Part shown: one piece after another, positions 1-19,662 of the stretch
How positions within the stretch are numbered: the first letter of the stretch is position 1
Layout: each line of letters begins with the position of its first letter
Source: Prochlorococcus marinus str. MIT 9302
Lineage (GTDB): Bacteria > Cyanobacteriota > Cyanobacteriia > PCC-6307 > Cyanobiaceae
DNA length: 64,000 nucleotides
Assembly: GCF_000759975.1 (NCBI RefSeq)
Contig: NZ_JNAM01000011.1
Span: forward strand, 310,001 to 374,000
Direction of reading: 5' to 3'
Translations under genes and position numbers: made by a program
Notes under the pieces: model-generated
Databases searched by the model: none
What the model saw: the letters and a program-made list of their open reading frames with translations, nothing else
What the model was told of the DNA's origin: nothing

Positions 1-77
1 CCAACTAATCCAGCAATTATTCCAGTATTAAGATAGACCTTTACTGTTGCTAATTCCTTACCTTCTTTTTTAGCCAT
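1..77 (-). CDS. N-terminal fragment of an unidentified protein, cut by window edge
   Basis: Reading leftwards from the ATG at 77, the first 25 codons give MAKKEGKELATVKVYLNTGI followed by IAGLV, and the frame stays open to the window edge. A short lysine-rich head is followed from about residue 15 by a hydrophobic stretch, so a small membrane protein is plausible. Too little is visible to name a family. Confidence 0.5.
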   Translation of the reverse strand, partial: MAKKEGKELATVKVYLNTGIIAGLV

Positions 78-594
78 AATAATTTTATTTAAACAAGCAC
101 ATCCAAGCTACCAATGAGGGTATCATTCAAGCAAGACTAAAAATTATATTTACGATATATCTTATGAAGTTCATATTACTATTTATATTTTTTCCACTTT
201 TATTTTCCCTTGTATCTTTAGTTTTTATTACTTACAAGGAATCGTAATTTTTTACTCAAACTTTACTCAAACTTTTATAGAGTAAAAAATTAACCGATAT
301 TGAGTTCGGTTCGAAGTAAGAAAACCCTGAAACTATTAATCTCTTTTGATGAATAGTCTTCAAATAAAAAAGACACAAAGCACAAAAACCACATTAAGTA
401 GCAAGCTAAGTGTCTTGGAAGTAATATGCATTAATTAAAAAGGTTTTTGTACTCGTGTGTAGGAGTGCGGGGTTAACCTTGAAACCGCTAGGCTCAAGTC
501 CTTACGAAAAGGACAAGTCCTTAGACCACTTATACCGATAAAATATATTCATGACAAGTTTAGGTAACTTGATTCACTAACTAAAAACTAAAGA
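78..594. other. Gene-free island stretch with hairpins and an 11-bp tandem repeat
   Basis: No convincing ORF is visible here. At 251-272 the 11-mer TTTACTCAAAC is tandemly duplicated. Two hairpins lie close together. At 467-488 GCGG pairs with CCGC. At 498-514 GTCCTT pairs with AAGGAC around a five-base loop. On the minus strand the second hairpin follows AGTGGTCTAAGG, which resembles a tRNA D-arm, but no complete tRNA can be folded. A decayed tRNA or a small RNA are both possible. Confidence 0.3.
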
Positions 595-673
595 CTAATC
601 TAGATTTTCATCTTCAGATTCATTTTGTAGAGAATTTATATCATCTAATTTAATTTCAACCATTTATTGGAAT

Positions 674-1018
674 ATGAAACGCTTACTACTCCCACTATTA
701 GCTGCTCTTGCTTTACCAGCATGTACAACCGAAGTCGTATATGAAACTCGGGAGCTTGCTTGGAATGAATGCAGAAGTTGGATGAAGGAAGGAGGTGAGT
801 TTTATATCCGAGAAGAAAGTGGCTACGATATGGTTACTAGGTGGTTGCCTAGAAGATTCTGCTTATACGACGATGACAAGATGGAAATGGTCGGTCAAGA
901 ACTAATTCAAATAAAAGAAGGAGACAAGTTCTTATCTGAGAATTTTCCTGGTATAGGGAAAGGTATCGCTACTCCTGTTACTCAAAAAACTTATAAATAT
1001 CAAAAACCTATTCCTTGA
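674..1018 (+). CDS. Small secreted lipoprotein-like hypothetical protein
   Basis: The 114-residue product starts with a textbook export signal: MKR, a leucine/alanine-rich core, then LPAC at residues 14-17, which fits a lipobox with lipidation on Cys17. The mature part is charged and contains two further cysteines (about residues 33 and 63). No known domain is recognised. The start codons match, over 17 bases, a signal-peptide start repeated at 1024 and 2578, which suggests that such starts have been copied between genes in this island. A periplasmic or membrane-anchored location is inferred; the function is unknown. Confidence 0.7.
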   Translation: MKRLLLPLLAALALPACTTEVVYETRELAWNECRSWMKEGGEFYIREESGYDMVTRWLPRRFCLYDDDKMEMVGQELIQIKEGDKFLSENFPGIGKGIATPVTQKTYKYQKPIP

Positions 1019-1023
1019 TAAAC

Positions 1024-1052
1024 ATGAAACGCTTACTACTTGCACCGCTATA
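1024..1052 (+). repeat. Orphan signal-peptide start, copy 1
   Basis: Five bases after the stop of the preceding secreted-protein gene lies an ATG start encoding MKRLLLAPL followed at once by TAA. The same 29 bases recur exactly at 2578-2606, again directly behind a secreted-protein gene. The peptide resembles the beginning of a signal peptide. It is either a gene remnant or a recombination scar. Confidence 0.7.
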
Positions 1053-1100
1053 AATTCCAAAAGAATATTATAAATTTCTCTTGGGTTTTACATAAGAAAA

Positions 1101-1258
1101 CAGCCACTGAGCTACCCCCATACCACCCATAACTTTCCTAAATAGAAACTTTGATGGATAATAAATTTATACCCAAAAAGTTTGGATAACGCATCCTCCA
1201 AGCCTTAAAAATCGCCGAGATCCCTTGGTATGAATGAAGAAAATTTTTGACTAATGAA
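1101..1258 (+). repeat. EVE-gene leader repeat, copy A1 (decayed)
   Basis: This segment matches the region upstream of the EVE-domain gene at 10050 and its first codons. Shared blocks include CCCCATACCACCCAT, ACTTTCCTAAATAG, ATGGATAATAAATTTATA, AAAAAGTTTGG, and an ATG followed by GAAGAAAATTTTTG. In this copy the codon for the conserved Trp of the EVE start (WLMK) has become TGA, and homology ends at about codon 9. It is a truncated, inactivated 5' end of the EVE gene. The short ORF at 1154-1189 (MDNKFIPKKFG) is intact. Confidence 0.8.
1154..1189 (+). CDS. Leader mini-ORF MDNKFIPKKFG in repeat A1
   Basis: An 11-codon ORF sits in the repeated EVE leader. It encodes exactly the same peptide as the copy at 9974-10009 although two third-codon positions differ (CCC/CCA and GGA/GGG). 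The upstream bases are AGAAACTTTG, a weaker ribosome site than in the other copies. Whether it is translated cannot be told from sequence; synonymous-only differences are suggestive but rest on just two sites. Confidence 0.35.
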   Translation: MDNKFIPKKFG

Positions 1259-1367
1259 CCATGTACCAGCTTGATATAACTAGGTTTTTCAAAATTTCTT
1301 AAATTCTATTCTAGCAAAACTAATAAATATTAATACATTCATTTAGGTAAGGATTTAGGATAATTTG

Positions 1368-1416
1368 TGATTGACATTCGATATAAAATTGGAGGGATAA
1401 AACCCTCTTTTTTAAT
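1368..1416 (+). repeat. Hairpin-ATG leader repeat, copy B1
   Basis: The block GATTGACATTCGATATAA, then GAGGG-ATAAAA-CCCTC-TTTTTT at 1392-1413, then AATGGA is repeated at 2097-2147. The hairpin plus T-run looks like an intrinsic terminator, yet it ends directly at the start codon of the oxygenase gene. A third partial copy (GATTGACAGTCGAT) lies at about 2614. Confidence 0.65.
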
Positions 1417-2047
1417 GGAACTAATTGGGAGATACAAGAACTCAGGATTCGAGGCTGTAGCTGATGGTGTTATTTCTTTCTTTGATCGCCGTAAAGACTT
1501 ACATACTAATGGTATCGCTTTTGGTCAAAACATCTCTTTGAATTCTGATCCTTACAAAGTTTCAACTGATATTAGTCTTGTTTCTATAGACCGTTCAGAT
1601 CCAGAAGCCTTTGCAATCTCTGAAGTTATAATTAGAGGAGTAAATGCTGGACTAAAAAAATATCTAGAAGATCGGCCACTTTTGAAGGAATGTTGCCCAG
1701 AACAATCTTTATTTGTTAACCCAATATTTAATTTACAATGTTATGCTCCTGGAGAAGGATTTAAGAAATGGCATTGCGATTGGACTATTAGTAATGAATC
1801 TACAGAACCTGTTCATAGAGTATTAGCTTGGATTCTTTATTGTAATGATGTTACTTCTGGCGGAACTGAATTTTATTGGCAGAATCATCATGAAAAAGCT
1901 GAAAGAGGAAAACTTATTATCTTTCCCGCAGGAATTTCTCATATTCACCGGGGGAGAGTCAATCATACTGATTTTAAAACTATTGCAACCGGTTGGATAA
2001 ATGCAGGTAATCTTGAAACCTATATTTCGCGATTAGCGAACTCCTAA
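1415..2047 (+). CDS. 2OG-Fe(II) oxygenase, prolyl-hydroxylase-like
   Basis: The 210-residue product carries the double-stranded beta-helix signature of 2-oxoglutarate/Fe(II) dioxygenases. There is an HxD pair in KWHCDW (about residues 120-122), a downstream histidine in SHIHRG (about 176-178), and a basic residue in the final FKTIATGW strand for 2-oxoglutarate. The ATG at 1415 is preferred over an in-frame GTG at 1367, because the upstream codons lie in a repeat that contains a terminator-like hairpin ending two bases before this ATG. The substrate is unknown. Such enzymes are common in picocyanobacterial islands and cyanophages (family knowledge), so transfer is likely. Confidence 0.8.
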   Translation: MELIGRYKNSGFEAVADGVISFFDRRKDLHTNGIAFGQNISLNSDPYKVSTDISLVSIDRSDPEAFAISEVIIRGVNAGLKKYLEDRPLLKECCPEQSLFVNPIFNLQCYAPGEGFKKWHCDWTISNESTEPVHRVLAWILYCNDVTSGGTEFYWQNHHEKAERGKLIIFPAGISHIHRGRVNHTDFKTIATGWINAGNLETYISRLANS

Positions 2048-2096
2048 ACTTTAAAGATTTATTTATAATTTCCGCTCTGAATTTATACTTTCATAT

Positions 2097-2147
2097 TGAT
2101 TGACAGTCGATATAACATAGAGGGATAAAACCCTCTTTTTTAATGGA
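2097..2147 (+). repeat. Hairpin-ATG leader repeat, copy B2
   Basis: This is the second copy of the block at 1368, with the same GAGGG/CCCTC hairpin and T-run (2120-2141) ending at an ATG (2143). Here the ATG opens a 19-codon ORF instead of the oxygenase. The duplication suggests that the leader, not the gene behind it, is the unit being copied. Confidence 0.65.
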
Positions 2148-2202
2148 TAAAAGTTTTATTGCTGAAAAGATTATGACCCTTATTATTTCTTTGATTGGGT
2201 AA
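2143..2202 (+). CDS. Leader mini-ORF abutting the secreted-protein gene
   Basis: A 19-codon ORF begins MDKSFIAEKIM. It ends with TAA directly touching the ATG of the gene at 2203 (TAAATG), an arrangement that permits translational coupling. Its MDxxFI start resembles the mini-ORFs inside the EVE-leader repeats. Coding status is uncertain. Confidence 0.3.
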   Translation: MDKSFIAEKIMTLIISLIG

Positions 2203-2577
2203 ATGAAAAGCTTAGTATTCATCCCTTTGTTATTGAGTTTTATTCCATCAGCTGATGCAGGCATCTACATTTATCCTTTCTTTAATGAAGGTATAGAAGT
2301 ACGCTGTGCAGATAATGAACCAAAACATTTAATTTCATTTAAAGCTGGAAGAGTTATGAAATTTGAAGATGATGGAGAAGAAAAATATAAATTTCCAGCA
2401 ACTTATCTTTATCCAGAAAAACCTAACAATAAGTATTCATATTTTCCTAGTACAGCAGGTACAAAATGTAGTTATAGAAAATTAAGTAAAAAAGAAAAAA
2501 AGTTCTTTATAAAAACAGCATTTGAAACTTGTATCGTTTCAGAAAAAATAAGAGAAAACTGCTATGGGTGGAATTAA
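2203..2577 (+). CDS. Small secreted hypothetical protein
   Basis: The product has 124 residues. Residues 1-19 (MKSLVFIPLLLSFIPSADA) form a clear Sec signal peptide with cleavage after ADA. The mature part is rich in tyrosine and lysine with four cysteines (about residues 35, 88, 110 and 119), so disulfides in the periplasm are plausible. No family is recognised. The gene follows a mini-ORF with no gap and is followed immediately by an orphan copy of a different signal-peptide start. Confidence 0.7.
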   Translation: MKSLVFIPLLLSFIPSADAGIYIYPFFNEGIEVRCADNEPKHLISFKAGRVMKFEDDGEEKYKFPATYLYPEKPNNKYSYFPSTAGTKCSYRKLSKKEKKFFIKTAFETCIVSEKIRENCYGWN

Positions 2578-2606
2578 ATGAAACGCTTACTACTTGCACC
2601 GCTATA
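2578..2606 (+). repeat. Orphan signal-peptide start, copy 2
   Basis: The 29 bases are identical to 1024-1052 and begin directly after the TAA at 2575-2577. The frame encodes MKRLLLAPL and then runs through unrelated sequence for ten more codons (including a GATTGACAGTCGAT repeat) to a stop. It looks like a scar left after a secreted-protein gene was lost or exchanged. Confidence 0.7.
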
Positions 2607-2781
2607 TTTAATACGATTGACAGTCGATCTAAACTAATTAGATAAATTCTGCTTAAATAATAGTTTCCATTGTCTAAAGATTGAATATTATTAGAAACAT
2701 ATTGGGGTTGGATGCGGATTCTTTTGATATATCATTGAATTGAATTGCAGACCCCTCAGATTTTTTAATTGAAAATTCAAG

Positions 2782-3120
2782 ATGGTTAACTCTGATAGTT
2801 GGCAAGAAGTAGAAATTGGAGATCAAGAAATAAGACCAGTATCTTATAGTGCCTTTTCAAAAATTCTCAAATCTTATATTTCAGATGACTTTTTTGGAAC
2901 TTTTGAACAAACGACAGATATTACTCTCGCAAGAATTGCAGACCTAGCTGATCCAGATGGCTGGTATACAGGTGACCCAGATCCAGAACATTGGATTTAT
3001 GTGATGAGACTTTATAAGGCTACTTCTAATAAGGAGAATTTGAAAAAAAGGGTTTTATTTTTTCCAAAAAATTCTATTCGAACCTCATTCGAACCTCATT
3101 CGAACTTTCTAGTGATTTAA
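2782..3120 (+). CDS. Hypothetical protein, 112 residues
   Basis: An ATG-started frame of 112 codons with acidic, aromatic-rich composition and no signal peptide or membrane segment. No known domain is recognised. The last 15 codons run through three tandem copies of an 11-mer beginning ATTCGAAC (3076-3108), so the C-terminus may have been altered by that duplication. No strong ribosome site precedes the start. It is probably a real island gene or a recently altered one. Confidence 0.5.
   Translation: MVNSDSWQEVEIGDQEIRPVSYSAFSKILKSYISDDFFGTFEQTTDITLARIADLADPDGWYTGDPDPEHWIYVMRLYKATSNKENLKKRVLFFPKNSIRTSFEPHSNFLVI
3076..3108 (+). repeat. 11-bp tandem repeat, three units
   Basis: ATTCGAACCTC occurs twice, followed by ATTCGAACTTT, with no spacer. 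It lies inside the 3' end of the hypothetical gene. The same unit length, with other sequences, is seen at 251-272, 6890-6911 and 7012-7033. Confidence 0.9.
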
Positions 3121-3210
3121 AGTCACCCTAATATCGCTATTAGTCATTACTAGATAAATATCTAACTTCAAATTCAATTAAGGATGGATTAAAAGAGAAC
3201 TATCCTAAAT

Positions 3211-3822
3211 CTATATATCACTAATCAACTCAGCTCCTTTTGCGCGGATAATTTGTTCTGAAGGAAAAATTCTATTAGAACAAGAACATTTACCTTTTTC
3301 TGAATTATTAATCCAATTAATTATTCCAGTTCTTAGAGGAGAAGGACACATTTGACTATTCTTAAGAGAATTCATTTCATCACAATTAAGCGAATCTCCA
3401 TGTTCGATAAAAAGAATCTCTTTTAATCTAAGTGAACATATTTCATTCCATTGATCAAAGCAATTCAAATGACTAATAAGGTCGTTACATGCATCTTTAG
3501 TTGAATTATATTTTTTCCTCTTAACTTCTTTTTCGAAAATAGCTTTAATAAAATCATTAAAGTTAGCTGCTTCTTGAGGGGTAAAATCTGAAAACGTTTT
3601 CTTTTGTTTTATAGCTAAACCCATATTCTCTTCAATAAATTTCAATCTATTTTCATGATTCCTTAATCTTATTTCTACATCATCTGAAGCATCGTTATTT
3701 AGATGTTTTTTGAAAAAATCATTTACATACTCAACTAAAGATTTACCTTCCTTTCTTGCACTAGTTTTTATTTCTTTTAAAAGATTTGGATCAATATTAA
3801 TATTGAGTTGAGTCCTTTTCAT
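3211..3822 (-). CDS. Ribbon-helix-helix domain protein, possible regulator
   Basis: Residues 1-40 from the ATG at 3822 fit a ribbon-helix-helix DNA-binding domain: MKRTQLNINID forms the beta strand and NLLKEIKTSARKEGKSLVEY the helices. The remaining 160 residues have no recognised domain. They include a charged, possibly coiled segment (50-75) and a cysteine-rich C-terminal part with CSC. An in-frame ATG ten codons upstream (3852) is possible, but the RHH strand begins at the chosen start. Target genes are unknown. The neighbouring porin is on the same strand, 130 bases downstream in transcription order, and the island repeats are candidate operators. Confidence 0.65.
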   Translation of the reverse strand: MKRTQLNINIDPNLLKEIKTSARKEGKSLVEYVNDFFKKHLNNDASDDVEIRLRNHENRLKFIEENMGLAIKQKKTFSDFTPQEAANFNDFIKAIFEKEVKRKKYNSTKDACNDLISHLNCFDQWNEICSLRLKEILFIEHGDSLNCDEMNSLKNSQMCPSPLRTGIINWINNSEKGKCSCSNRIFPSEQIIRAKGAELISDI

Positions 3823-3952
3823 CGAAAAATCAACTAAAAAATAACTAATCAATCATATAATAACCAAATTATCCATTATTAAAGACTGTCAAAATATAAT
3901 CATTTTTACACTTACAAACTTGTCAAAATATTCAGAATATTTTCTTCTTGTT

Positions 3953-5110
3953 TTAAAATTTAAAGCTAGTTTTCACTATCGCTCCTGTTACATCATCAGC
4001 TCCATCCTGCTGCACTGCAAAGATTGAAGGGGTTATTGAAATATTGTCATTGATTTGCATCTTATAAAAAGTCTCCCATGCTAAGGGATCATCATAGCCA
4101 TCATCATCCCTATGAGTTTCCGCTGTTCCAATAGCAAATCCTAGGTTATTTCCTTCTTTAATTACATCGTTCCAAAGAATACCAACTGTCCATGTATTAC
4201 CATCCTCAACAGAATTTGCAGCTGTATCTGGATCATCATGATTATCTGGATTCTTCCATCCAAAGCCAGCACTTATTGAAGAAGGTAAGAAGACATCTGA
4301 CTGATTCAAGAAATTGTAAGTGCCATTTATTCCATAAGATGAATAATCATTGGCATCAGGACTATTATCTGTATTTCCACCATCAGAATGTGTATAAGCA
4401 AAAGCGAGAGTATACGAATCATCTACCAATGCAAGCTGTGTAGTAATGTTGTCTCTTCCTTCTTTAGTTAAAATTCCTTCATTAGAATCAGCATCTTCTG
4501 AAACGAGAACAGTACTTGCTATGAATTTATCTTTGGAATAAGTAACTCCTACTCCTGCTCCCATTCTTTTTGAATAGGTGTCATTAGCTCCAGCTTGATT
4601 TAAAACAAATAAAATTCCATCTTCACCAGGATAAGCTGTTGGCTTAACACCAAGTAAATCATCTTGACGAAGTTTAGGACCCATAGTAACTCTGACACTA
4701 TCACTTACAGGAAACTTATAAAACAGCTTATGAACTTCAAGATTATCATTACTATTAAATGCTGTATCCAGCCTAGAAGCTCCCATCATTCCAAAGGGAT
4801 CCATCATATTAAAATTACCAGCACGAATAGCAGTCATCAACATGTCTTCTCCTGTAAAGCTAGTCATGCCCATTAACTTTAAGTCGTAGTTAAAAAGTAC
4901 AGCATCTGTTCTAGTGGAACCATCAACGCCTCCTAAAACAAACGTACTCTTTCCCATAAACATCGTTGATGGGAACGAATCAGTCATATTCATATGAGAA
5001 TCATTATGCATATGATGATCATGATGATTCATTCCTCCTGCATGAATAGCAATAGGCATAATTGTTCCAGCCAAAGCAGGTGCAAATAATTTCTGAGGAG
5101 AAAGCTTCAT
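3953..5110 (-). CDS. Outer-membrane porin with His/Met-rich N-terminus
   Basis: The 385-residue product begins with a signal peptide (cleavage near AIHA, residue 24). A metal-ligand-rich stretch GGMNHHDHHMHNDSHMNM follows, then about 330 residues of alternating, Asp/Asn/Gly-rich sequence ending in SFKF, a C-terminal aromatic typical of outer-membrane beta-barrels. It resembles the SLH-less porin-like proteins of marine picocyanobacteria. The His/Met head could bind copper or another soft metal (inference). It is transcribed divergently from two DUF3721 genes that also carry His/Met/Cys ligands, which suggests a shared metal-related role. Confidence 0.75.
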   Translation of the reverse strand: MKLSPQKLFAPALAGTIMPIAIHAGGMNHHDHHMHNDSHMNMTDSFPSTMFMGKSTFVLGGVDGSTRTDAVLFNYDLKLMGMTSFTGEDMLMTAIRAGNFNMMDPFGMMGASRLDTAFNSNDNLEVHKLFYKFPVSDSVRVTMGPKLRQDDLLGVKPTAYPGEDGILFVLNQAGANDTYSKRMGAGVGVTYSKDKFIASTVLVSEDADSNEGILTKEGRDNITTQLALVDDSYTLAFAYTHSDGGNTDNSPDANDYSSYGINGTYNFLNQSDVFLPSSISAGFGWKNPDNHDDPDTAANSVEDGNTWTVGILWNDVIKEGNNLGFAIGTAETHRDDDGYDDPLAWETFYKMQINDNISITPSIFAVQQDGADDVTGAIVKTSFKF

Positions 5111-5184
5111 TAAAAATAATTTCTAGGGGATCTAGATTAACTAGTAATTACATATTAATATTGGTATAAATTCTTACAATTCCT
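5111..5184. promoter_or_regulatory. Divergent promoter region, porin versus DUF3721 operon
   Basis: Only 74 bases separate the porin start (minus strand) from the TTG start of the DUF3721 lipoprotein (plus strand), so both promoters must overlap here. The segment is AT-rich. I cannot point to a definite operator. Confidence 0.4.
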
Positions 5185-5439
5185 TTGAAAGAAACATTCA
5201 TTCTTTCTCCAATTTTCTTAATAACCATACTATTTAGTCTTGGCTGCACTTCAAAAGTTGAAGAAACAAAAACCCCTGCACTTTTTGATTCCAAAAGAGA
5301 AGCTGAAAAAGCTGCTAAAAGTTTTAATTGCACTGGAGCGCATATGATGGGCAATAAGTGGATGCCTTGCGCAACTCATGAAGCTCATGAAAATTCTCAT
5401 GACAAGAACAAAAAGGATCACAATCACCACCATCATTAA
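5185..5439 (+). CDS. DUF3721 lipoprotein with histidine tail
   Basis: The 84-residue product starts with a TTG codon. Residues 1-21 form an export signal ending LFSLGC, a possible lipobox. Residues about 33-65 match DUF3721: FDSKREAEKAAKSFNCTGAH, then MGNKWMPCATH, with the invariant Cys, His, Met and Cys. The C-terminus is His-rich and ends in four histidines. Together these suggest a periplasmic metal-binding lipoprotein (inference). It is followed after seven bases by a second DUF3721 gene and is divergent from the His/Met-rich porin. Confidence 0.75.
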   Translation: MKETFILSPIFLITILFSLGCTSKVEETKTPALFDSKREAEKAAKSFNCTGAHMMGNKWMPCATHEAHENSHDKNKKDHNHHHH

Positions 5440-5446
5440 TTCTTAA

Positions 5447-5890
5447 ATGAAGGATTCAGAAAATACTAATCAGAATAAAACTGATGGTCCCGCACATTGC
5501 GGTAGTAAGCCAAAGAAAATTGCAATTGGAATAGCTCCGCTTGGATACATATCAATTGGAATAGTCCCCATGGGTATTGTCACTATAGGAATTGTGCCAA
5601 TGGGAGTAGTCTCTTTTGGCGTAGTTGCAATGGGAGTAATAAATGCCTCCATAGTTGGAATGGGTGTTTTCTCTGCTGGAATTACAACGATGGGATTAAA
5701 AGTTTGGACTCCTATAGGACCTAACATTGAACAAAGCACTAAACAAAATAATTCTTCAGATTCAATGAATATTTATGCATATCCCACAAAAGCTAAAGCT
5801 ATTGAAGAAGCGAAAAAACTTGGATGCAAAGGAATTCATAAAATGGGTGATTTATGGATGCCATGCGCAACACATGGTTTAAATAAATAA
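5447..5890 (+). CDS. Decapeptide-repeat protein with C-terminal DUF3721
   Basis: The 147-residue product has three parts. A hydrophilic head contains one Cys. Residues about 25-84 contain six consecutive ten-residue repeats of the type GI-x-PMG-[IV]-x-x-[IF]. Residues about 107-143 match DUF3721 (YPTKAKAIEEAKKLGCKGIH, then MGDLWMPCATH). The glycine-spaced hydrophobic repeats could form a beta-solenoid or a membrane-inserted bundle; no ordinary signal peptide is seen. It is operonic with the preceding DUF3721 lipoprotein and ends at a strong terminator. The fusion of repeat and DUF3721 suggests the DUF acts as a ligand-binding module. Confidence 0.75.
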   Translation: MKDSENTNQNKTDGPAHCGSKPKKIAIGIAPLGYISIGIVPMGIVTIGIVPMGVVSFGVVAMGVINASIVGMGVFSAGITTMGLKVWTPIGPNIEQSTKQNNSSDSMNIYAYPTKAKAIEEAKKLGCKGIHKMGDLWMPCATHGLNK

Positions 5891-5917
5891 AAAAGAGGCT
5901 TTAAAACCTCTTTTTTA
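5889..5917 (+). terminator. Intrinsic terminator after the DUF3721 operon
   Basis: AAAAAAGAGG and CCTCTTTTTT pair perfectly around the loop CTTTAAAA. The T-run follows on the plus strand and the A-run precedes it, so it can work in both directions. On the minus strand the small gene at 5945 ends just before it. Confidence 0.85.
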
Positions 5918-5944
5918 GATCTGCAATTTTAAGGGAATATTATT

Positions 5945-6109
5945 TTAGGAATCTTTTAATTCCATTTCCTTTTGTGCTTGCGTGATCCTTTCTTCAAAGA
6001 CTGACCTTCGATATGGAGTAATTCCTCCATTTTTAATTGCCAAAAGTTGGGCTTGATTAAGTCTTTTTACTTTGTTAATTTTTTCTCTAATTTTTAAGAG
6101 GTTATTCAT
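5945..6109 (-). CDS. Small hypothetical protein, 54 residues
   Basis: ATG at 6109, TAA at 5945. The product begins MNNLLKIREKINKVKRLNQA and ends KEMELKDS. It is strongly charged and almost entirely helical in prediction by eye, with a central GGITPYRRSVFEERI segment. The codon use and amino-acid composition look coding. Upstream bases lack a clear Shine-Dalgarno. It ends at the shared bidirectional terminator with the DUF3721 operon. The function is unknown; a small nucleic-acid-binding or regulatory protein is only one possibility. Confidence 0.6.
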   Translation of the reverse strand: MNNLLKIREKINKVKRLNQAQLLAIKNGGITPYRRSVFEERITQAQKEMELKDS

Positions 6110-6446
6110 GATTTTATGCAGTTAATGAGAATCCCGTTCCCTATTCTCATTTCATGCGTCCAGATATTTATTGGATGAACGTAAATGAACAATAACATTC
6201 AACAATTAGTCTCGCGAGAGTAATTCTTACTAAATTTAACCGTCTCTTTAAAAGCTCTTTCCCTTATTTAAAGAATAAGCGCTTAACTTAAAAAATTAGC
6301 ACTCAGCATAACCACTGCTTTGCATCAGGATTTTGGAGAGTGCAATCTGATAGTCTCAAAAAAACATTTAATTTGTGAATTTTGTTAATTTTTATTCAGC
6401 TTTATCTTGATTTTCTATTTTTTAATAGCAATTCCACATAATCCCG
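6110..6446. other. Gene-free stretch
   Basis: No ORF is supported. A GCACTC (6299-6304) and GAGTGC (6338-6343) inverted pair separated by 33 bases is present. It resembles half-sites of the CIRCE heat-shock operator but has the wrong spacing. Nothing else is recognised. Confidence 0.4.
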
Positions 6447-6613
6447 ATGGTGAGGATAAGGGCTAACTGTTTATATTTAAAAAAATTAAATAGGTTTTTA
6501 TTTTCAACTGAGGATTATAAGCAGTTGAAAGAGAGGGAAGACCTTAAACCTACAGAAATTTGGAACGGATTCTGTATGGTTAATATACACTTATGCCCTA
6601 TTACTTCTGCTAA

Positions 6614-6703
6614 ATGTATCATTATGAACATATTATTTCTTTTCAAATATCAATCTTTTCTTTTACATTCTTGGGAATAGTAGCAGGGTCAGCATCCCAA
6701 TAA
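6614..6703 (+). pseudogene. Possible frameshifted small membrane protein
   Basis: The ATG at 6614 opens a 29-codon hydrophobic ORF ending FTFLGIVAGSASQ. In the next frame, at 6682-6777, sequence continues with a second hydrophobic segment (IPIIKIPIGVVITVGLPVAM) and a stop. A single-base shift would join both into one two-helix protein of about 55 residues. Alternatively the 29-residue peptide stands alone, or neither is real. It lies just upstream of repeat copy A2. Confidence 0.25.
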
Positions 6704-6852
6704 TCAAAATCCCTATTGGCGTTGTTATTACTGTTGGGTTGCCTGTCGCAATGATTAAGTTCGGCAGAAAGAGCTGAATTAGGAAATAGATGTCTGAAGC
6801 AGCCAATGAGCTGACCCCATACCACCCATCACTTTCCTAAATAGGAGCTTTA

Positions 6853-6939
6853 ATGGATAATGATTTTATAAAGGCAAATCTTATATTACATTCACGATTC
6901 ATTCACGATTTGCAATATTCTCCTAATCCCTTGATATGA
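6853..6939 (+). CDS. Leader mini-ORF in repeat A2, overlapping the EVE-like start
   Basis: A 28-codon ORF starts MDNDFIKANL, nine bases behind AGGAG. Its TGA overlaps the ATG of the EVE fragment as ATGA, a classical coupling arrangement. It is longer than the sister mini-ORFs partly because the 11-bp duplication at 6890-6911 lies inside it. Translation is unproven. Confidence 0.3.
   Translation: MDNDFIKANLILHSRFIHDLQYSPNPLI
6890..6911 (+). repeat. 11-bp tandem repeat, two units
   Basis: ATTCACGATTC is followed immediately by ATTCACGATTT, inside EVE-leader copy A2. The corresponding positions of copies A1 and A3 lack it, so the duplication arose after the copies separated or was lost from them. 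Confidence 0.9.
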
Positions 6940-7011
6940 CTGAAATAAACTACTGGCTAATGAAAAGTGAGCCAGTCTGATTTCAGAGTGGATCTCAAGG
7001 ATTTGTGATTT

Positions 7012-7065
7012 TTTACCCAAACTTTACCCAAACTTTTAAACTTTTAAACTTTTAAACTTTTAAAC
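7012..7065 (+). repeat. 11-bp tandem repeat followed by four TTTTAAAC units
   Basis: TTTACCCAAAC occurs twice (7012-7033). It is followed without a gap by four perfect copies of the octamer TTTTAAAC (7034-7065). A near-identical 11-mer pair lies at 251-272, with similar bases just before it. The reverse complement, GTTTGGGTAA, also appears once in the EVE leader at 10000-10009. Confidence 0.9.
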
Positions 7066-7146
7066 TTTTAAAAATTATCCGAATCCCTTAATCATTTTTT
7101 CTGATTGATATCCTGATTTCACGAATTTAGTATTATCAGTCAATAT

Positions 7147-7308
7147 TTAAATGATTTTTGAAAGAGTTTTTGGTTTTTTTGAAGTAGTTTTCTTAAGATA
7201 TTCAGGGATATAACTATATGAAACTAATTTCTCATCAGCATTATGAAAGTAGTTTTGAAATTCATTAAAGTACTTCTGGGGTAGAGTAAGGGGTTTTTTA
7301 ATCTTCAT
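7147..7308 (-). CDS. Small hypothetical protein with PQKYF motif, 53 residues
   Basis: ATG at 7308 is preceded by AGGAGG six bases upstream, a far stronger ribosome site than most genes here have. The product begins MKIKKPLTLPQKYFNEFQNY and ends in a lysine-rich tail. It is soluble, with no cysteines. Its start resembles that of the 46-residue protein at 8562-8702 (both read basic residue, P, hydrophobic, KYF), suggesting a small family. It is the last of three consecutive minus-strand genes with the same kind of ribosome site. The function is unknown. Confidence 0.65.
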   Translation of the reverse strand: MKIKKPLTLPQKYFNEFQNYFHNADEKLVSYSYIPEYLKKTTSKKPKTLSKII

Positions 7309-7321
7309 TTTTTCCTCCTAA

Positions 7322-7507
7322 TTAGTAATGAAAATAAGGAATTTCTTCTAATTTTTTTGGAATAAAAGAACAGATGCCAAATTGCATACATTCCATTTGA
7401 TCATCAGTCAAAGCTCTCGAGTTTGAATTCCGACCTGAGAATGTATCTAGAAAAAAATGTATTGTATTTTGAATCTTATGTTTATAAGGATTTCCGCAAG
7501 ACATCAT
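7322..7507 (-). CDS. Small cysteine-containing hypothetical protein, 61 residues
   Basis: Two adjacent ATG codons (7507 and 7504) follow AGGAGGTTA; the second has the better spacing. The product starts MMSCGNPYKHK and has three to four cysteines, including CMQFGIC near residue 40. No membrane segment or signal peptide is present. It lies 13 bases upstream of the 53-residue gene at 7308 and about 36 bases downstream of the one ending at 7544, so the three are probably co-transcribed. No family is recognised. Confidence 0.65.
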   Translation of the reverse strand: MMSCGNPYKHKIQNTIHFFLDTFSGRNSNSRALTDDQMECMQFGICSFIPKKLEEIPYFHY

Positions 7508-7543
7508 TAACCTCCTTTGTTTTTTGAAAATTTTTAAACCCTA

Positions 7544-7705
7544 TTATTCAGCAATGCAATAGGGGTCGCTTTGTGATTTGCTGCAAAAAATTGTTTTGCG
7601 TAGATAGGCTTTTTCATATTTTCTATAAATACTTTGAGTCATGAAAACTCCAAAATAAATAAGTAAGACAGTCAATATGAGTAGCTCTAATCCTAAGTTG
7701 GTCAT
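7544..7705 (-). CDS. Small single-pass membrane protein, 53 residues
   Basis: ATG at 7705 follows AAAGGAGGTTAATCAA, a strong Shine-Dalgarno. Residues 4-23 (LGLELLILTVLLIYFGVF) form one membrane helix. A basic stretch follows (YRKYEKAYLRK), then a short tail with two cysteines (IFCSKSQSDPYCIAE). The positive-inside rule puts the tail in the cytoplasm. It is the first gene of a three-gene minus-strand set of tiny proteins. The function is unknown; photosystem or stress-type small membrane proteins are possibilities, but no signature is seen. Confidence 0.65.
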   Translation of the reverse strand: MTNLGLELLILTVLLIYFGVFMTQSIYRKYEKAYLRKTIFCSKSQSDPYCIAE

Positions 7706-7928
7706 TTGATTAACCTCCTTTGATTTGAGTATTATTTAGTACGTTTGATATCTAAAAAGCAAGCGTATGAATACCTAAAAAAATATCAGGCAATTACTTT
7801 AATTAACTTCGAAACTAAAAATAAGAATTTATTTTAAATACTAAGTTTCAAATAAATCAGCATATCTACGCATATACAAAAAAATTTATCCGTACTAGCT
7901 TCCTATTAGTCAAACGGAGGGATTAGAA
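7706..7928. other. AT-rich intergenic region
   Basis: This stretch separates the minus-strand small-gene set from the plus-strand minigene at 7929, so it should hold divergent promoters. It is very AT-rich; no definite operator or RNA gene is seen. Confidence 0.4.
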
Positions 7929-8045
7929 ATGATCGATAGTCCACCAGAGAAGTTCATTAGATTGGTTTAAGCAGCCGACAACATTAACAACAAGGATCAA
8001 TGATTTAGGTGCGTTGTTAATTTATTCCGACACATAACTAAGTGA
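7929..8045 (+). pseudogene. SD-led minigene with in-frame stops
   Basis: The ATG at 7929 follows ACGGAGGG with good spacing and encodes MIDSPPEKFIRLV before TAA. The same frame continues with AADNINNKDQ, TGA, FRCVVNLFRHITK and TGA, and this sequence looks protein-like. Either a small gene has been broken by two nonsense mutations, or a 13-residue peptide heads a short non-coding transcript. A strong terminator follows directly. Confidence 0.3.
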
Positions 8046-8087
8046 AAGAGATTGTTTTCTAAAGGCAGGATTCAATCTCTTTTTTTA
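8045..8087 (+). terminator. Strong intrinsic terminator
   Basis: AAAGAGATTG pairs with CAATCTCTTT (10 bp) around an 18-base loop, followed by seven T residues. It closes the transcript of the minigene at 7929; no longer gene precedes it on this strand, so a short RNA is produced here. Confidence 0.8.
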
Positions 8088-8178
8088 TTGGGTTTACATC
8101 AAAACAAACTTCTCATATTTATTTCTATTTTGCCAATATTAAAAAGCATCCATTACAACCTAAGCAAAGCGGTGGTCT

Positions 8179-8289
8179 ATGGGTGCAAATAATTTCAAAG
8201 TAATTAAGATTCATCTACAACAAGAACAATATAGATATCAAGTGCCAAATTTAAAAACCTTTAGATTAGGTACTTTACCTAAAATTTGA
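8179..8289 (+). CDS. Possible 36-residue protein
   Basis: ATG at 8179 gives MGANNFKVIKIHLQQEQYRY followed by QVPNLKTFRLGTLPKI and TGA. Composition looks coding, with an amphipathic beta-strand-like pattern, but the upstream GGTGG is a weak ribosome site and the length is short. It lies 49 bases before the cysteine-rich gene at 8339. Confidence 0.35.
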   Translation: MGANNFKVIKIHLQQEQYRYQVPNLKTFRLGTLPKI

Positions 8290-8338
8290 CTTTATTAGGA
8301 AAAAGTTGCTAGATGTTCTGCAGATTGGAGAATTAATT

Positions 8339-8506
8339 ATGAAAAAAGACATTTTATCAAACATCAAAAATTCAGATGCTTTGGAAAGTTTCTTCGATTG
8401 CATTACTTCATGCAGTATCAATAGTGAGGGGGTAGACTGTACTACCGCTTGTTATGCTAAACACTTGGAACCAGCTAATGTCGATTATCCTTTAAACTTT
8501 TTATAA
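8339..8506 (+). CDS. Small twin-CX3C protein, 55 residues
   Basis: The ATG at 8339, eight bases behind GGAG, is preferred over an ATG 11 codons upstream. The product MKKDILSNIKNSDALESFFD continues with two CX3C motifs, CITSC and CTTAC, separated by eight residues, then a hydrophilic tail ending NFL. Twin CX3C pairs typically form a helical hairpin pinned by two disulfides or a metal site. Whether it is exported is unclear, since no signal peptide is present. No family is recognised. Confidence 0.6.
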   Translation: MKKDILSNIKNSDALESFFDCITSCSINSEGVDCTTACYAKHLEPANVDYPLNFL

Positions 8507-8561
8507 GCAGATTAAGCAAAGTTAAGATTGAATATATTTATATATCTACAGTTTCCAGCAA

Positions 8562-8702
8562 TTAAATTTCGCAGCCGCAATATGAAGGGTTCTCTTCACA
8601 CCTAAGTTTCCAATAAATTACTTTGATATTTGCTCCGTTATCTATATCGTTAATAGTCCTAAAGTATTTAGGAATGATTGTATAAGGAACTCTTTTATTC
8701 AT
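8562..8702 (-). CDS. Small hypothetical protein with PKYF motif, 46 residues
   Basis: ATG at 8702 follows AGGAGGAAATC, a strong ribosome site. The product begins MNKRVPYTIIPKYFRTINDI and ends with a cysteine cluster (CEENPSYCGCEI). The first 14 residues resemble those of the protein at 7147-7308, although the tails differ. It is convergent with the twin-CX3C gene. The function is unknown; the CxC tail could bind a metal or form a disulfide. Confidence 0.6.
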   Translation of the reverse strand: MNKRVPYTIIPKYFRTINDIDNGANIKVIYWKLRCEENPSYCGCEI

Positions 8703-8850
8703 GATTTCCTCCTACTTGCTACACCTATGTTCTAACTACCAACGCATATCATTTATGAGTATCAGTATGTACGGTTTAAGGAAAAATAAAGTACGGGTAA
8801 AGGACCAAATTTTGAGACTTTTATTTAAATGCAAGTCCTAGGATTAATTC

Positions 8851-8896
8851 ATGGTTGTCATGAGGCAGTTGCAGGGATACAACTGAAGCCAACCAT
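8851..8896. ncRNA. Nested-hairpin structured RNA candidate
   Basis: ATGGTTG (8851-8857) pairs perfectly with CAACCAT (8890-8896). Inside it CAGTTG (8866-8871) pairs perfectly with CAACTG (8880-8885) around an eight-base loop, CAGGGATA. The two stems are separated by an asymmetric internal loop (8 versus 4 bases). The strand is ambiguous because the stems are palindromic. No known riboswitch or small RNA is recognised. Confidence 0.4.
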
Positions 8897-9016
8897 AAAT
8901 TATTAGAGATCAATTCAAGATATAAAACAAACTCATATAACTAAAGAGATAGTGATGTATTTAAAAACCACGAACATCTATTAGTAACACTTCTAATACC
9001 AATTAATAAACAAAAT

Positions 9017-9040
9017 AAAGGGGCATGTGTTTGCCCCTTT
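9017..9040 (+). terminator. Terminator-like hairpin
   Basis: AAAGGGGC pairs with GCCCCTTT (8 bp) around ATGTGTTT. Only three T residues follow on the plus strand, so it may be a weak terminator or a stabilising 3' hairpin of a small RNA starting upstream near 8840. Confidence 0.55.
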
Positions 9041-9222
9041 CGAGTCTTATGCACTCATTATCTAAAAAGTCGGTGAGTGCTTTTGACTCCTGAATTATTT
9101 CTACTCCTGTTGAATTGGAAAAGATAGTCGTGACAACCACAAAGCACTTCTACTCGGGTAAAAATACTCTATTAATTTCAGGTCAATTAGAGGAAAATAT
9201 AGGTATAGATCTAGGAGGTCTT

Positions 9223-9405
9223 ATGAAGCTATTCAATCAATTTAATATTCTTCCAAAATATCTAACGGCATTTAACTATGCAGGTTTAAATTTGAATGAA
9301 ACCCCAAAAGAACTTGAGCAATGCCCTGTAGAGTTTCAAACCTACTGGGACAAAGAATGTAAAGACAATCCAACTAATCAAAATTGTTTAATCTATTGTG
9401 ACTGA
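9223..9405 (+). CDS. Small cysteine-containing hypothetical protein, 60 residues
   Basis: The ATG at 9223 is preceded by TAGGAGGTCTT and is chosen over an in-frame TTG at 9115, which has no ribosome site. From the ATG the product starts MKLFNQFNILPKYLTAFNYA and ends with four cysteines in its last 25 residues, including CLIYCD at the terminus. The extra 36 codons upstream also look protein-like, so the longer form cannot be excluded. The LPKYL segment recalls the PKYF motif of two other small island proteins. Confidence 0.55.
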   Translation: MKLFNQFNILPKYLTAFNYAGLNLNETPKELEQCPVEFQTYWDKECKDNPTNQNCLIYCD

Positions 9406-9931
9406 GTTTAAATTATTCATCCTTGGTCAATAAAAGTGTTATGCCACCATTCCATTAATCCTCTTTTTCTCTTAATTCAGGAAAGCAATTAGCTACTTTT
9501 AATGACACTCCTCTAAAAGCATTGGACGCCAAGAAATAGCTATTTAATTCTTACCTTAAAGAACCTATAAAATTTAATAAAAACGTTTGATCGTATTAGA
9601 AGGAACTTTTACTGGAACCAAAGATTCACCGTAGTGTGATTCGGCTGATCTCATCAGCAGCCAGTAAAAGAAATTAACTAAAGCAGTCTCCACGAAGATT
9701 TAGTAACTGACCTAAATAACCTCAATCGAAGTGTATTAGCAATATACAAAACTCTTATGTCAACCTTTTAAAACATTTGTATCAGGACGAACTATTTAAA
9801 AACCCTAGAATTTGTTCTAAAAACTGTTCTACATTAAACAAATTTCATGCGATAAACCTATTTTTCAGTATCAATGGCGGGGTTTATACAGAAATTTATG
9901 AGGTGGAATATATACGTACATGCAAGGATAA
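9406..9931. other. Gene-free stretch before the island boundary
   Basis: No ORF longer than a few codons is supported. It holds the structured-RNA candidate at 9606-9670 and ends at EVE-leader copy A3. Nothing else is recognised. Confidence 0.4.
9606..9670. ncRNA. Structured RNA candidate closed by a perfect 10-bp stem
   Basis: CTTTTACTGG (9606-9615) and CCAGTAAAAG (9661-9670) pair perfectly over ten bases. Inside, GCTGAT (9644-9649) pairs with ATCAGC (9653-9658) across a three-base loop. The remaining 28 bases contain a weak CAC-CGTA-GTG hairpin. The layout is that of a two- or three-way junction RNA. No known family is recognised and no coding sequence overlaps it. Confidence 0.45.
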
Positions 9932-10087
9932 TTGACCCCATACCACACATCACTTTCCTAAATAGGAACTTTGATGGATAATAAATTTATACCAAAAAAG
10001 TTTGGGTAACTCCTCATGGAAGCCCAAAAAATCACCCAAATCCCTTGATATGACTGAAGAAAATTTTTGGCTAATGAAAAGCGAACC
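9932..10087 (+). repeat. EVE-gene leader repeat, copy A3 (attached to the intact gene)
   Basis: This is the parental-looking copy: the leader leads into the complete EVE-domain gene. It shares with A2 the 20-base run AATCCCTTGATATGACTGAA and with A1 the whole MDNKFIPKKFG mini-ORF. It marks the change from island to core gene order. Confidence 0.8.
9974..10009 (+). CDS. Leader mini-ORF MDNKFIPKKFG upstream of the EVE gene
   Basis: An 11-codon ORF follows AGGAACTTTG at a normal ribosome-site distance and ends 40 bases before the EVE start. The peptide is identical to that of copy A1 with two synonymous differences. It could be a regulatory leader peptide; translation is not proven. Confidence 0.35.
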   Translation: MDNKFIPKKFG

Positions 10088-10508
10088 TAACGCTTACAGT
10101 ATAGAAACTTTAAAAAATGATGAGGTTACTTTATGGGACGGGATAAGAAATTATCAAGCTCGAAATTTCATGAGAAAAATGAATAAAGGAGATAAGGTTT
10201 TTTTCTATCATTCAAACTGTAAACCCCCAGGTATTGTTGGACTTATGGAAGTAATAGATCTAAATATTATTGATCCTACCCAATTTGATAAAGATTCAAA
10301 ATATTTTGATCCAAAATCAAAACCTGAGAATCCGAGATGGGATTGTGTAAAAGTAAAATACTTATCTAAGTCAGATAAGATTTTAAGTTTACCTGAATTA
10401 AAGAATTTATTTAGTGAGGATGAGTTATTAGTTGTAAAGAAAGGAAATAGGTTATCTATAATACCAGTCCAAAATGATACAGCAAAAATATTGCTGGAAA
10501 AAATATAA
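10050..10508 (+). CDS. EVE-domain protein
   Basis: The 152-residue product is a single EVE (PUA-like) domain. It opens with NFWLMKSEP, the family hallmark, followed by WDGIRNYQARNFMR, GDKVFFYHSN, PGIVGLMEV and WDCVKVKY. EVE domains bind modified bases in DNA or RNA (family knowledge); the ligand here is unknown. The ATG at 10050 is chosen over an in-frame TTG at 10002, because homology starts there and the truncated copies begin at the same codon. The leader and first codons are duplicated twice in the island to the left, and the gene sits at the island-core junction. It is convergent with the DUF2811 gene. Confidence 0.85.
   Translation: MTEENFWLMKSEPNAYSIETLKNDEVTLWDGIRNYQARNFMRKMNKGDKVFFYHSNCKPPGIVGLMEVIDLNIIDPTQFDKDSKYFDPKSKPENPRWDCVKVKYLSKSDKILSLPELKNLFSEDELLVVKKGNRLSIIPVQNDTAKILLEKI

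Positions 10509-17980: not shown

Positions 17981-19662
<1,682 letters not shown>

Follow-up and report, generated by a model that had tools for sequence, protein, structure and literature searches.

Probable serial insertion at the start of the EVE gene

The window analysed here, a 64,000-nt stretch of the genome of Prochlorococcus marinus str. MIT 9302 (NZ_JNAM01000011.1, positions 310,001–374,000, forward strand), contains a gene for an EVE-domain protein that is preceded by displaced copies of its own leader. We conclude, with a probability of roughly 0.85, that this array arose by serial site-specific integration into the 5' end of the EVE gene, where an 11-bp core, TGGCTAATGAA, serves as the site; the figure applies to integration at the core, and is divided between cassettes that move as such and the decayed elements considered below. 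Judging from the sequences, the units between the leader copies are mobile, and the EVE gene would survive successive insertions while a shuffled bank of foreign genes grows beside it. An earlier, sequence-only reading of the window had likewise proposed serial insertion at the 5' end of this gene, with its start regenerated on the side of the core genome; this proposal is now supported by an empty site in another strain, by shuffled cargo and by junctions that fall at the 11-bp core.

The EVE-gene leader is indeed repeated on the plus strand, at 1116–1258 (A1), 6797/6812–6973 (A2) and 9932–10087 (A3), and only the last of these joins a complete EVE gene, the sole one present (10050–10508, plus strand; 152 amino acids (aa); Pfam EVE, 1.1e-52). 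The functional leader A3 (9932–10078, plus strand) comprises a block ACTTTCCTAAATAG..GATGGATAAT, the six first codons and the core at 10068–10078; within the gene, the integration site corresponds to codons 7–10 (Trp-Leu-Met-Lys). A1 (1116–1258, plus strand) is a displaced EVE 5' end, 87% identical to the intact leader over 143 nt, and its core, TGACTAATGAA (1248–1258, plus strand), has TGA at 1248–1250 where the EVE gene has TGG, which is the Trp-to-stop change noted earlier. A2 (6812–6964, plus strand), with a D-type 11-bp tandem repeat at 6890–6911 and its core TGGCTAATGAA at 6954–6964 (plus strand), also has the early stop ascribed to it, directly after MTEINYWLMKSEPV. Two parts of the sequence-only reading did not stand. 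It had held that 9–13 codons are common to the copies, but the likeness of all copies to the gene stops at TGGCTAATGAA: 3' of the core, A1 continues into sequence unrelated to the EVE gene, and A2 into a cassette end (AAGTGAGCCAGTCTGA...) whose likeness to the gene is limited to ~10 bases and which is present again in L072 and, in variant form, in L056, two of the loci from other genomes described below. It had also counted three copies, whereas a profile search finds seven in this genome.

In a search of the MIT 9302 genome with the rightmost leader, five matches were obtained in 20 kb of one contig, two of them left of the window; the left window copy scored E 7.7e-46 (87%) and the middle copy 4.5e-20 (73%). 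An iteratively built profile placed the seven copies within ~20 kb, all on the strand of the EVE gene (C11:299586, 305330, 306358, 309800, 311118, 316817 and 319938), the copy at 309800 having lost its core; a separate multi-genome count gave eight. Two of six cores in the array are exact and four carry one mismatch, and the exact 11-mer has no occurrence in 155 kb of this genome outside the array. The array reaches ~10.4 kb left of the window, up to a LOG-family gene after PhoH. Named from their translations, the genes left of it are PhoH, the LOG-family gene and an outer-membrane-like open reading frame (ORF), and PhoH is among the Pfam and PHROGs matches of the cargo and flank representatives.

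Distribution of the arrays

A wider sample was assembled from 80 named loci (the best 80 of 545 from a search with the EVE protein, nearly all Prochlorococcus) and the locus of MIT 9302 itself. All 163 leader copies that the profile search found in these 81 loci lie on the EVE strand, and 82 of them are remnants. At least one remnant occurs in 41 loci; the other 40 have none in the available upstream sequence, which is at most 10 kb. The comparison of strains that had been suggested as a check does reveal an empty site with one leader: in L064, the LOG gene is followed by ~120 nt, a single leader (without the conserved block) and the EVE gene. It also reveals that cargo between copies varies and that its order is shuffled; identical spacing and cargo everywhere, named at the outset as a pattern that would contradict serial insertion, is not what the strains display.

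The leader was matched in 234 of 266 genomes of the genus, including 82 of the 87 that are at least 90% complete, and the array model in 174 of 400 genomes of the family; as the stricter filter of Infernal scores few candidates per genome, genus- and family-wide copy numbers are lower bounds. Arrays hold up to 13–15 sites. The second contrary pattern, a scatter of copies over unrelated loci, is hardly seen: in 14 near-complete genomes, 84 of the 85 copies listed lie in one cluster per genome, of less than 37 kb and on one strand, with one off-cluster copy (in G071) and two genomes that have a single copy. Ten complete genomes from seven other genera gave 81 weaker matches that are clustered likewise, over up to 60 kb, apart from two weak off-cluster copies (G357); one copy is on the opposite strand (G336). 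Among 30 copies from the seven other genera the core is exact in 23, with one mismatch in five and two mismatches in two, and seven loci from other genera have an EVE gene that is 59–69% identical, begun in six of them by the fetched copy. Many of the genomes given G numbers seem to recur among the loci given L numbers, and copy counts from the two sets are not independent.

The core, its arms and the units between cores

When 79 non-coding remnants were aligned on TGGCTAATGAA (three of the 163 copies, with more than three core mismatches, and one too near an end were left out), the core positions proved to be 92–100% conserved and most flanking positions 35–80%. The exceptions in the flanks are positions −12, −11, −6 and −3 on the left (90–96%), and +15, +18 and +21 on the right (81–89%); +18 and +21 belong to an imperfect inverted repeat, ACTGG..CCAGT, around the core. 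In many copies, the core is preceded by a block ACTTTCCTAAATAG-N-GATGGATAAT, a pair of tandem 11-bp repeats (which come in several kinds) and 6–8 codons, in this order; in many remnants it is followed, ~45 bp further on, by tandem repeats of these same kinds. A pattern search found these repeats to be absent from 87 kb of the MIT 9302 genome outside the array.

Cut from core to core, the arrays yield 107 units with a median length of 2621 bp (range 94–6521). The repeat type, one of seven that were defined after inspection of cassette ends, is equal at both ends in 21 of 45 typed units, against 8.6 expected (p = 1e-4), and in 14 of 34 after deduplication, against 5.7 expected (p = 3e-4); across junctions it matches in four of 33, against 5.2 expected, i.e. 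there is no agreement. Since the types match within units and not across junctions, the two ends of a unit belong together, like the arms of an attP site.

The boundaries can be placed to the nucleotide. In pairs of units with like content and unlike neighbours, per-base identity is mostly 0.9–1.0 inside and mostly 0.2–0.5 outside, and the boundary coincides with the core at either end, lying before base 0 on the left (35 pairs) and after base 10 on the right (39 pairs). These profiles use copies with at most three mismatches; the filters retained 44 (left) and 40 (right) of 166 similar unit pairs. As the pairs were selected to be alike inside and unlike outside, the contrast in identity is given by the selection, but the position of the change is not. 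The singly conserved flank bases stand out in the otherwise dissimilar outside sequence. Recurrent cassettes include family X (15 members, 89.4–98.9% identical), family Z (13 members, 95.1–99.9% identical, eight of them of 2.62 kb) and family Y (six members, 96.8–98.4% identical), and their order is reversed between loci, being Z-Y-EVE in L048, and Y-Z-EVE in L066, L075 and G071. Of 73 units, 45 have their longest ORF on the plus strand and 28 have it on the minus strand.

Consequences for the EVE gene

All 84 intact EVE genes, 'intact' meaning the gene at the last leader copy of a locus, are in frame through the core. The segment that precedes Trp-Leu-Met-Lys occurs in 20 forms: MTEINY in 25 genes, MVQQEPSY in four and eleven forms once each. 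Among 1184 pairs of loci whose EVE bodies are at least 93% identical, 1000 have leaders that are less than 70% identical, with the switch at the core (82 of the 84 intact loci were long enough for this comparison, and the pairs are non-independent). As like bodies are thus combined with unlike leaders, the N-terminus and the leader vary independently of the body of the gene. Moreover, in 66 pairs that have a common last cassette, the median leader similarity is 0.78, versus 0.50 in 2668 others. The defining feature of islands that target the 5' end of a gene, namely replacement of its leader and N-terminus by sequence of the element, is therefore found at this locus.

Proposed mechanism and the recombinase

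In the mechanism that we propose, a site-specific recombination system would use the 5' end of the EVE gene as its attB, or landing site. The corresponding attP would be borne by a circular cassette: on one side of the core TGGCTAATGAA it would have an outer arm in which 11-bp repeats stand in tandem, and on the other a leader that brings further tandem repeats, a block resembling a promoter, and 6–8 codons. Crossover in the core would put the cassette between the old leader, which would become a dead remnant, and the EVE gene, which would then use the leader and N-terminus of the cassette; repeated insertion would produce an array in the order old core flank, remnant, cassette, remnant, cassette, EVE. 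Here, we infer circular intermediates, a function of the tandem repeats as arm sites for the recombinase and of the conserved block as a promoter, and a tyrosine recombinase that acts in trans. The preference for a tyrosine over a serine enzyme is drawn from the long shared core, which fits the former better; the serine recombinases of the MIT 9302 genome are at C4:24331 and C10:297653, neither of them at the array locus. The region around the latter (L126) encodes a serine recombinase as a 621-aa open frame with weak similarity to CcrB, and ~5 kb away, a 404-aa frame with a weak tyrosine-recombinase match; it is perhaps another mobile region of this genome.

The enzyme would have to be supplied from elsewhere. 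In the 14 near-complete and ten complete genomes, the 100 kb to either side of the main cluster, as far as they belong to its contig, are free of PF00589 matches, and so is the array contig of MIT 9302, so that the earlier remark that no integrase is visible holds at the locus in 24 genomes; elsewhere, there are 29 PF00589 matches in the 14 near-complete genomes and 21 in the ten complete ones. In the same 24 genomes, which were fully listed, no integrase-bearing parent element was found at the EVE site. A phmmer search with 35 ORFs taken from the centre of integrase loci (L089–L123; the L093 query is no integrase but a large ORF) gave no match in the array loci; its targets were stop-to-stop ORFs of at least 60 aa from L088, the 80 loci and the initial 12 kb of the window. 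Used elsewhere, the method did recover relatives of two genes beside an integrase. The scans of cargo families list the best 25 of 143 and 25 of 101 families, and do not show that integrases are absent. In the integrase loci searched, the repeat patterns were found in none except L168, which has a leader copy.

Our candidate for the acting enzyme is a tyrosine recombinase of ~390 aa that occurs in nearly every genome (372 of 400 in the family, 50 of 59 genera); we put it forward tentatively, and integrases of passing elements or another enzyme are also candidates. It is the only PF00589 match in G044, G053, G067, G073, G316, G336, G344 and G370, all of which have arrays except G053, with one copy. 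Its N-terminal part resembles by eye the arm-binding domain of phage integrases. A structure model was of too low confidence for use (mean predicted local distance difference test score, 42), and no sequence relative was found in the PDB. Linking this recombinase to the arrays by co-distribution was tried and rejected as non-discriminating: it is present in more genomes than the arrays, and co-occurrence therefore gives no specific support, leaving it a candidate only. A bolder version, in which the host runs a family-wide bank of cassettes, with the ~390-aa recombinase capturing and reshuffling integrase-less cassettes at the EVE start, is in our judgement rather unlikely. If true, such a bank would be an analogue of the integron on a protein-coding gene, with several arm-site codes.

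A number of observations weigh against serial integration as formulated here. Some concern the sites. In 62 of the 107 units, the repeat type of at least one end could not be assigned. Many cassette ends disagree with the gene in the last three bases of a symmetric 7-bp overlap, an unusual situation for most tyrosine recombinases. Leader similarity shows no correlation with that of the upstream 1 kb when all pairs are taken (rho 0.03), and no sigma-70 consensus promoter was found in 9880–10120. In L073 (1771–6754), leader copies are also present to the left of the core LOG gene and the EVE gene directly follows LOG, an arrangement that simple terminal accretion does not explain. Others concern the enzyme and the intermediates. 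No recombinase is assigned to the core, and the circular intermediates are conjectural. The ~390-aa recombinase extends to genera in which no array was detected (372 of 400 genomes, versus 174 of 400 with a match to the array model), and Pfam finds in it the catalytic domain only, and no arm-binding domain. Lastly, 12 kb separate the off-cluster leader copy of G071 from an integrase, and 26 kb separate a weak off-cluster copy of G357 from a weak integrase-like match. The G071 region (L168) has its leader copy, with an E-type arm, at 18520–18668 and the integrase at 5549–6484, both on the minus strand; cassettes may, to judge from this region, ride in other elements.

Alternative explanations

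The alternative that survives best is that the units are decayed autonomous elements, similar to tycheposons or to integrative and conjugative elements (ICEs), each of which has lost its integrase, such that the array reflects plain accretion of cis-mobilizable elements (CIMEs) with no mobilization in trans. This is a variant of our reading, compatible with its site-specific part, and we regard it as possible, if doubtful. Five repeat types (A–E, with D seen once) are found at both ends of the same unit, as if several integrases of different arm specificity had used one core; the orphan arms in the window (described below) show decay, and the leader copy of G071 lies in a region with an integrase gene, at the distance given above. 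However, the integrase-less cassette Z is present in 13 copies in different contexts and seems to be mobile in that form, and a homology search with integrases of the same genomes found nothing in the 81 loci.

A much less probable explanation is that the leaders provide homology only, and that homologous recombination between them moves segments of the array. Their length would suffice for this, and runs of neighbouring units are in some cases shared without a change of order (L066 and L075). Yet the breakpoints fall at the 11-bp core despite ~100 bp of related leader on its left, the remnants turn into the cassette end directly after the core, and the order of Y and Z is reversed. Equally improbable, or somewhat more so, is that the repeats are a regulatory module that was copied to drive the cargo genes, mobility being incidental: the block ACTTTCCTAAATAG..GATGGATAAT is conserved in many remnants, but the junctions lie at the core and not at this promoter-like block, and 28 of 73 units have their longest ORF on the opposite strand. 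Least credible is an integron-like system, in which an integron integrase captures cassettes at single-strand-folded sites: same-orientation sites, shuffling of cassettes and a single insertion locus would suit it, but no PF00589 protein adjoins the locus in the 24 genomes, the double-arm site around TGGCTAATGAA, with its tandem repeats, is unlike the sites of integrons, and the longest ORFs run in both directions (plus strand in 45 units, minus in 28).

Units and cargo

Two of the core-to-core units lie in the window. Unit 1 (1259–6964, plus strand; 5.7 kb from core to core) starts with an outer arm at 1259–1330 (plus strand; CCATGTACCAGCTTGATATAACTAGG..., one TTCTAGCA motif) that is also found at cassette starts in other strains. 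Its cargo consists of a 2OG-Fe(II) oxygenase (1367–2047), ORFs at 2203–2577 and 2782–3120, an ORF with a sub-threshold match to DUF6364 (3211–3852, minus strand), an OprB-like porin (3953–5110, minus strand) and DUF3721 ORFs at 5185–5439 and 5447–5890. Unit 1 is probably a fusion of older units, because it contains an orphan E-type arm without a core (ATTCGAAC repeats; 3076–3107, plus strand), which may be the trace of an older junction. Also within the unit, a glutamine-II riboswitch (6125–6184, minus strand) lies upstream of a 54-aa ORF (5945–6109, minus strand); together they are possibly cargo that has its own nitrogen-responsive switch.

Unit 2 (6965–10078, plus strand; 3.1 kb) is a member of the cassette family that also supplies L056 with its last unit. 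Its left end (6965–7080, plus strand), which is shared with L072 and has a variant in L056, reads AAGTGAGCCAGTCTGATTTCAG..., then two copies of ACCCAAACTTT (A-type, from 7015) and a run of AAACTTTT. The unit carries the cyanobacterial small RNA Yfr11 (7908–8086, plus strand), which indicates that this small RNA can be cassette cargo, together with three small ORFs within 7147–7705 (minus strand) and ORFs at 8306–8506 and 9115–9405. Further to the left, an orphan A-type arm (TTTACTCAAACTTTACTCAAACTTT; 235–277, plus strand) with no core to its left would be the end of a unit that has lost its leader.

Elsewhere, cargo that is bounded by two leader copies includes PhoX (L007), a metallophosphoesterase (L048), a radical SAM protein (L013), an AIR-synthase-related protein (L050) and a cupin (L017, as a family member), all functions being predicted from sequence families. 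Dienelactone hydrolase, acyltransferase-SGNH and TPR proteins, a Schlafen-group helicase and an EcoEI-R-like subunit are found in the same regions, but with no leader copy on both sides of them in the available sequence.

Viral sequences provide a single possible carrier. The conserved-block pattern had no match in viral contigs, and two core patterns matched seven and 39 of them, of which only one (L166; IMGVR_UViG_3300006334_000917, 1–6609) is related by its flanking sequence. It has EVE N-terminal codons, the core, a C-type arm and a cupin gene; the first ~1090 bp are host-like and pass into P-SSM2-like cyanophage DNA directly before uvsX, which may reflect either a capture by a phage or an assembly chimera. 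A 771-bp part of the host-like DNA has no match among phage records, and the leader had short weak matches only among 50,697 phage records, none of them in cyanophages.

Two other repeated sequences were noted. TTGACAGTCGAT.. recurs at 1369, 2098 and 2615 in the window and at ~329 and ~1036 in L166, followed at several of these sites, beside cargo genes, by a hairpin-like GAGGG..CCCTC sequence, and may be a second repeat type within the islands. A gene start, ATGAAACGCTTACTACT..., appears three times in the window (674, 1024 and 2578); at two of these places it breaks off at 29 nt, which would suit a shuffling of gene starts.

Comparison with known systems

Prochlorococcus is among the most abundant photosynthetic organisms, and its gain of genes in islands is usually ascribed to tRNA sites and integrases borne by the elements. 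The EVE locus would offer a second route with boundaries at nucleotide level, in which a protein-coding landing pad receives small cassettes that can be traced from strain to strain. It predicts a recombinase that acts in trans, which is testable, and the core together with the type of tandem repeat could mark the order of gene acquisition in single cells. Among the titles listed by our literature search, whose coverage of print is incomplete, none appears to describe the EVE array.

The closest precedent for the accretion itself is that of CIMEs, which are att-flanked elements devoid of integration and transfer genes that pile up in tandem, the incoming element using the gene-side att site and regenerating the end of the gene (PMC5704250). 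The tandems described there derive from ICEs and from integrative and mobilizable elements, one stated site being the 3' end of a tRNA gene, and the ICESt1 family appears in the reference list (PMC5704250). Like CIMEs, the EVE units are flanked, core to core, by att-like sites of one specificity and have no integration genes at the locus (in the 24 genomes, and in 81 loci by homologue search). No conjugation gene is among the best 25 of 143 cargo families, although no search was aimed at transfer genes. Unlike the CIME tandems, the EVE arrays reach 13–15 sites, are built of small recurring cassettes and target the 5' end of a gene.

In the replacement of leader and N-terminus by sequence of the element, the EVE locus resembles islands in dusA and prfC. 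SXT integrates at the 5' end of prfC, whose promoter and N-terminus are replaced. The dusA islands likewise integrate at the 5' end of a protein-coding gene and replace its promoter and N-terminus, and PMC4482086 calls their own integrase 'the only universal common feature'. It is in this respect that the EVE units differ, as none was found at their locus.

With the tycheposons, for which seven tRNA genes serve as sites in Prochlorococcus according to PMC10872708, the arrays share the same organisms and islands that carry cargo; with the islands of Methylophilaceae, where 20-nt repeats of a tRNA-Lys fragment lie in varying number beside additive flexible islands (PMC10872708), they share repeats of an att fragment in varying number. 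In contrast to tycheposons, no tyrosine recombinase was found with the EVE units (at the locus in the 24 genomes, and in 81 loci by homologue search), and their target is protein-coding and not a tRNA. No tRNA was found in the window or in the nine loci searched, which cover parts of the arrays in G000, G071, G083 and G047, together with the G000 left flank and the region of the off-cluster copy in G071; ARAGORN did find tRNAs in L093. From the same genus, the nearest case in the literature compared is the putative tRNA-Met site of P-SS2, with several partial copies (PMC2784084).

As in integrons, exchangeable cassettes lie between same-orientation sites at one chromosomal locus. The arrays differ from integrons in having no adjacent integrase (an intI beside the array is not seen, there being no PF00589 match within 100 kb of the main cluster in the 24 genomes), in a site anatomy that is different on inspection, and in multi-gene cassettes in both orientations. 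The EVE array thus combines features that are known from separate systems: it is integrase-less, it occupies the 5' end of a protein-coding gene, and it forms long arrays at one locus across genera. Overall, it is best read as CIME-like accretion combined with 5'-end replacement of the dusA type, with the enzyme presumably acting in trans.

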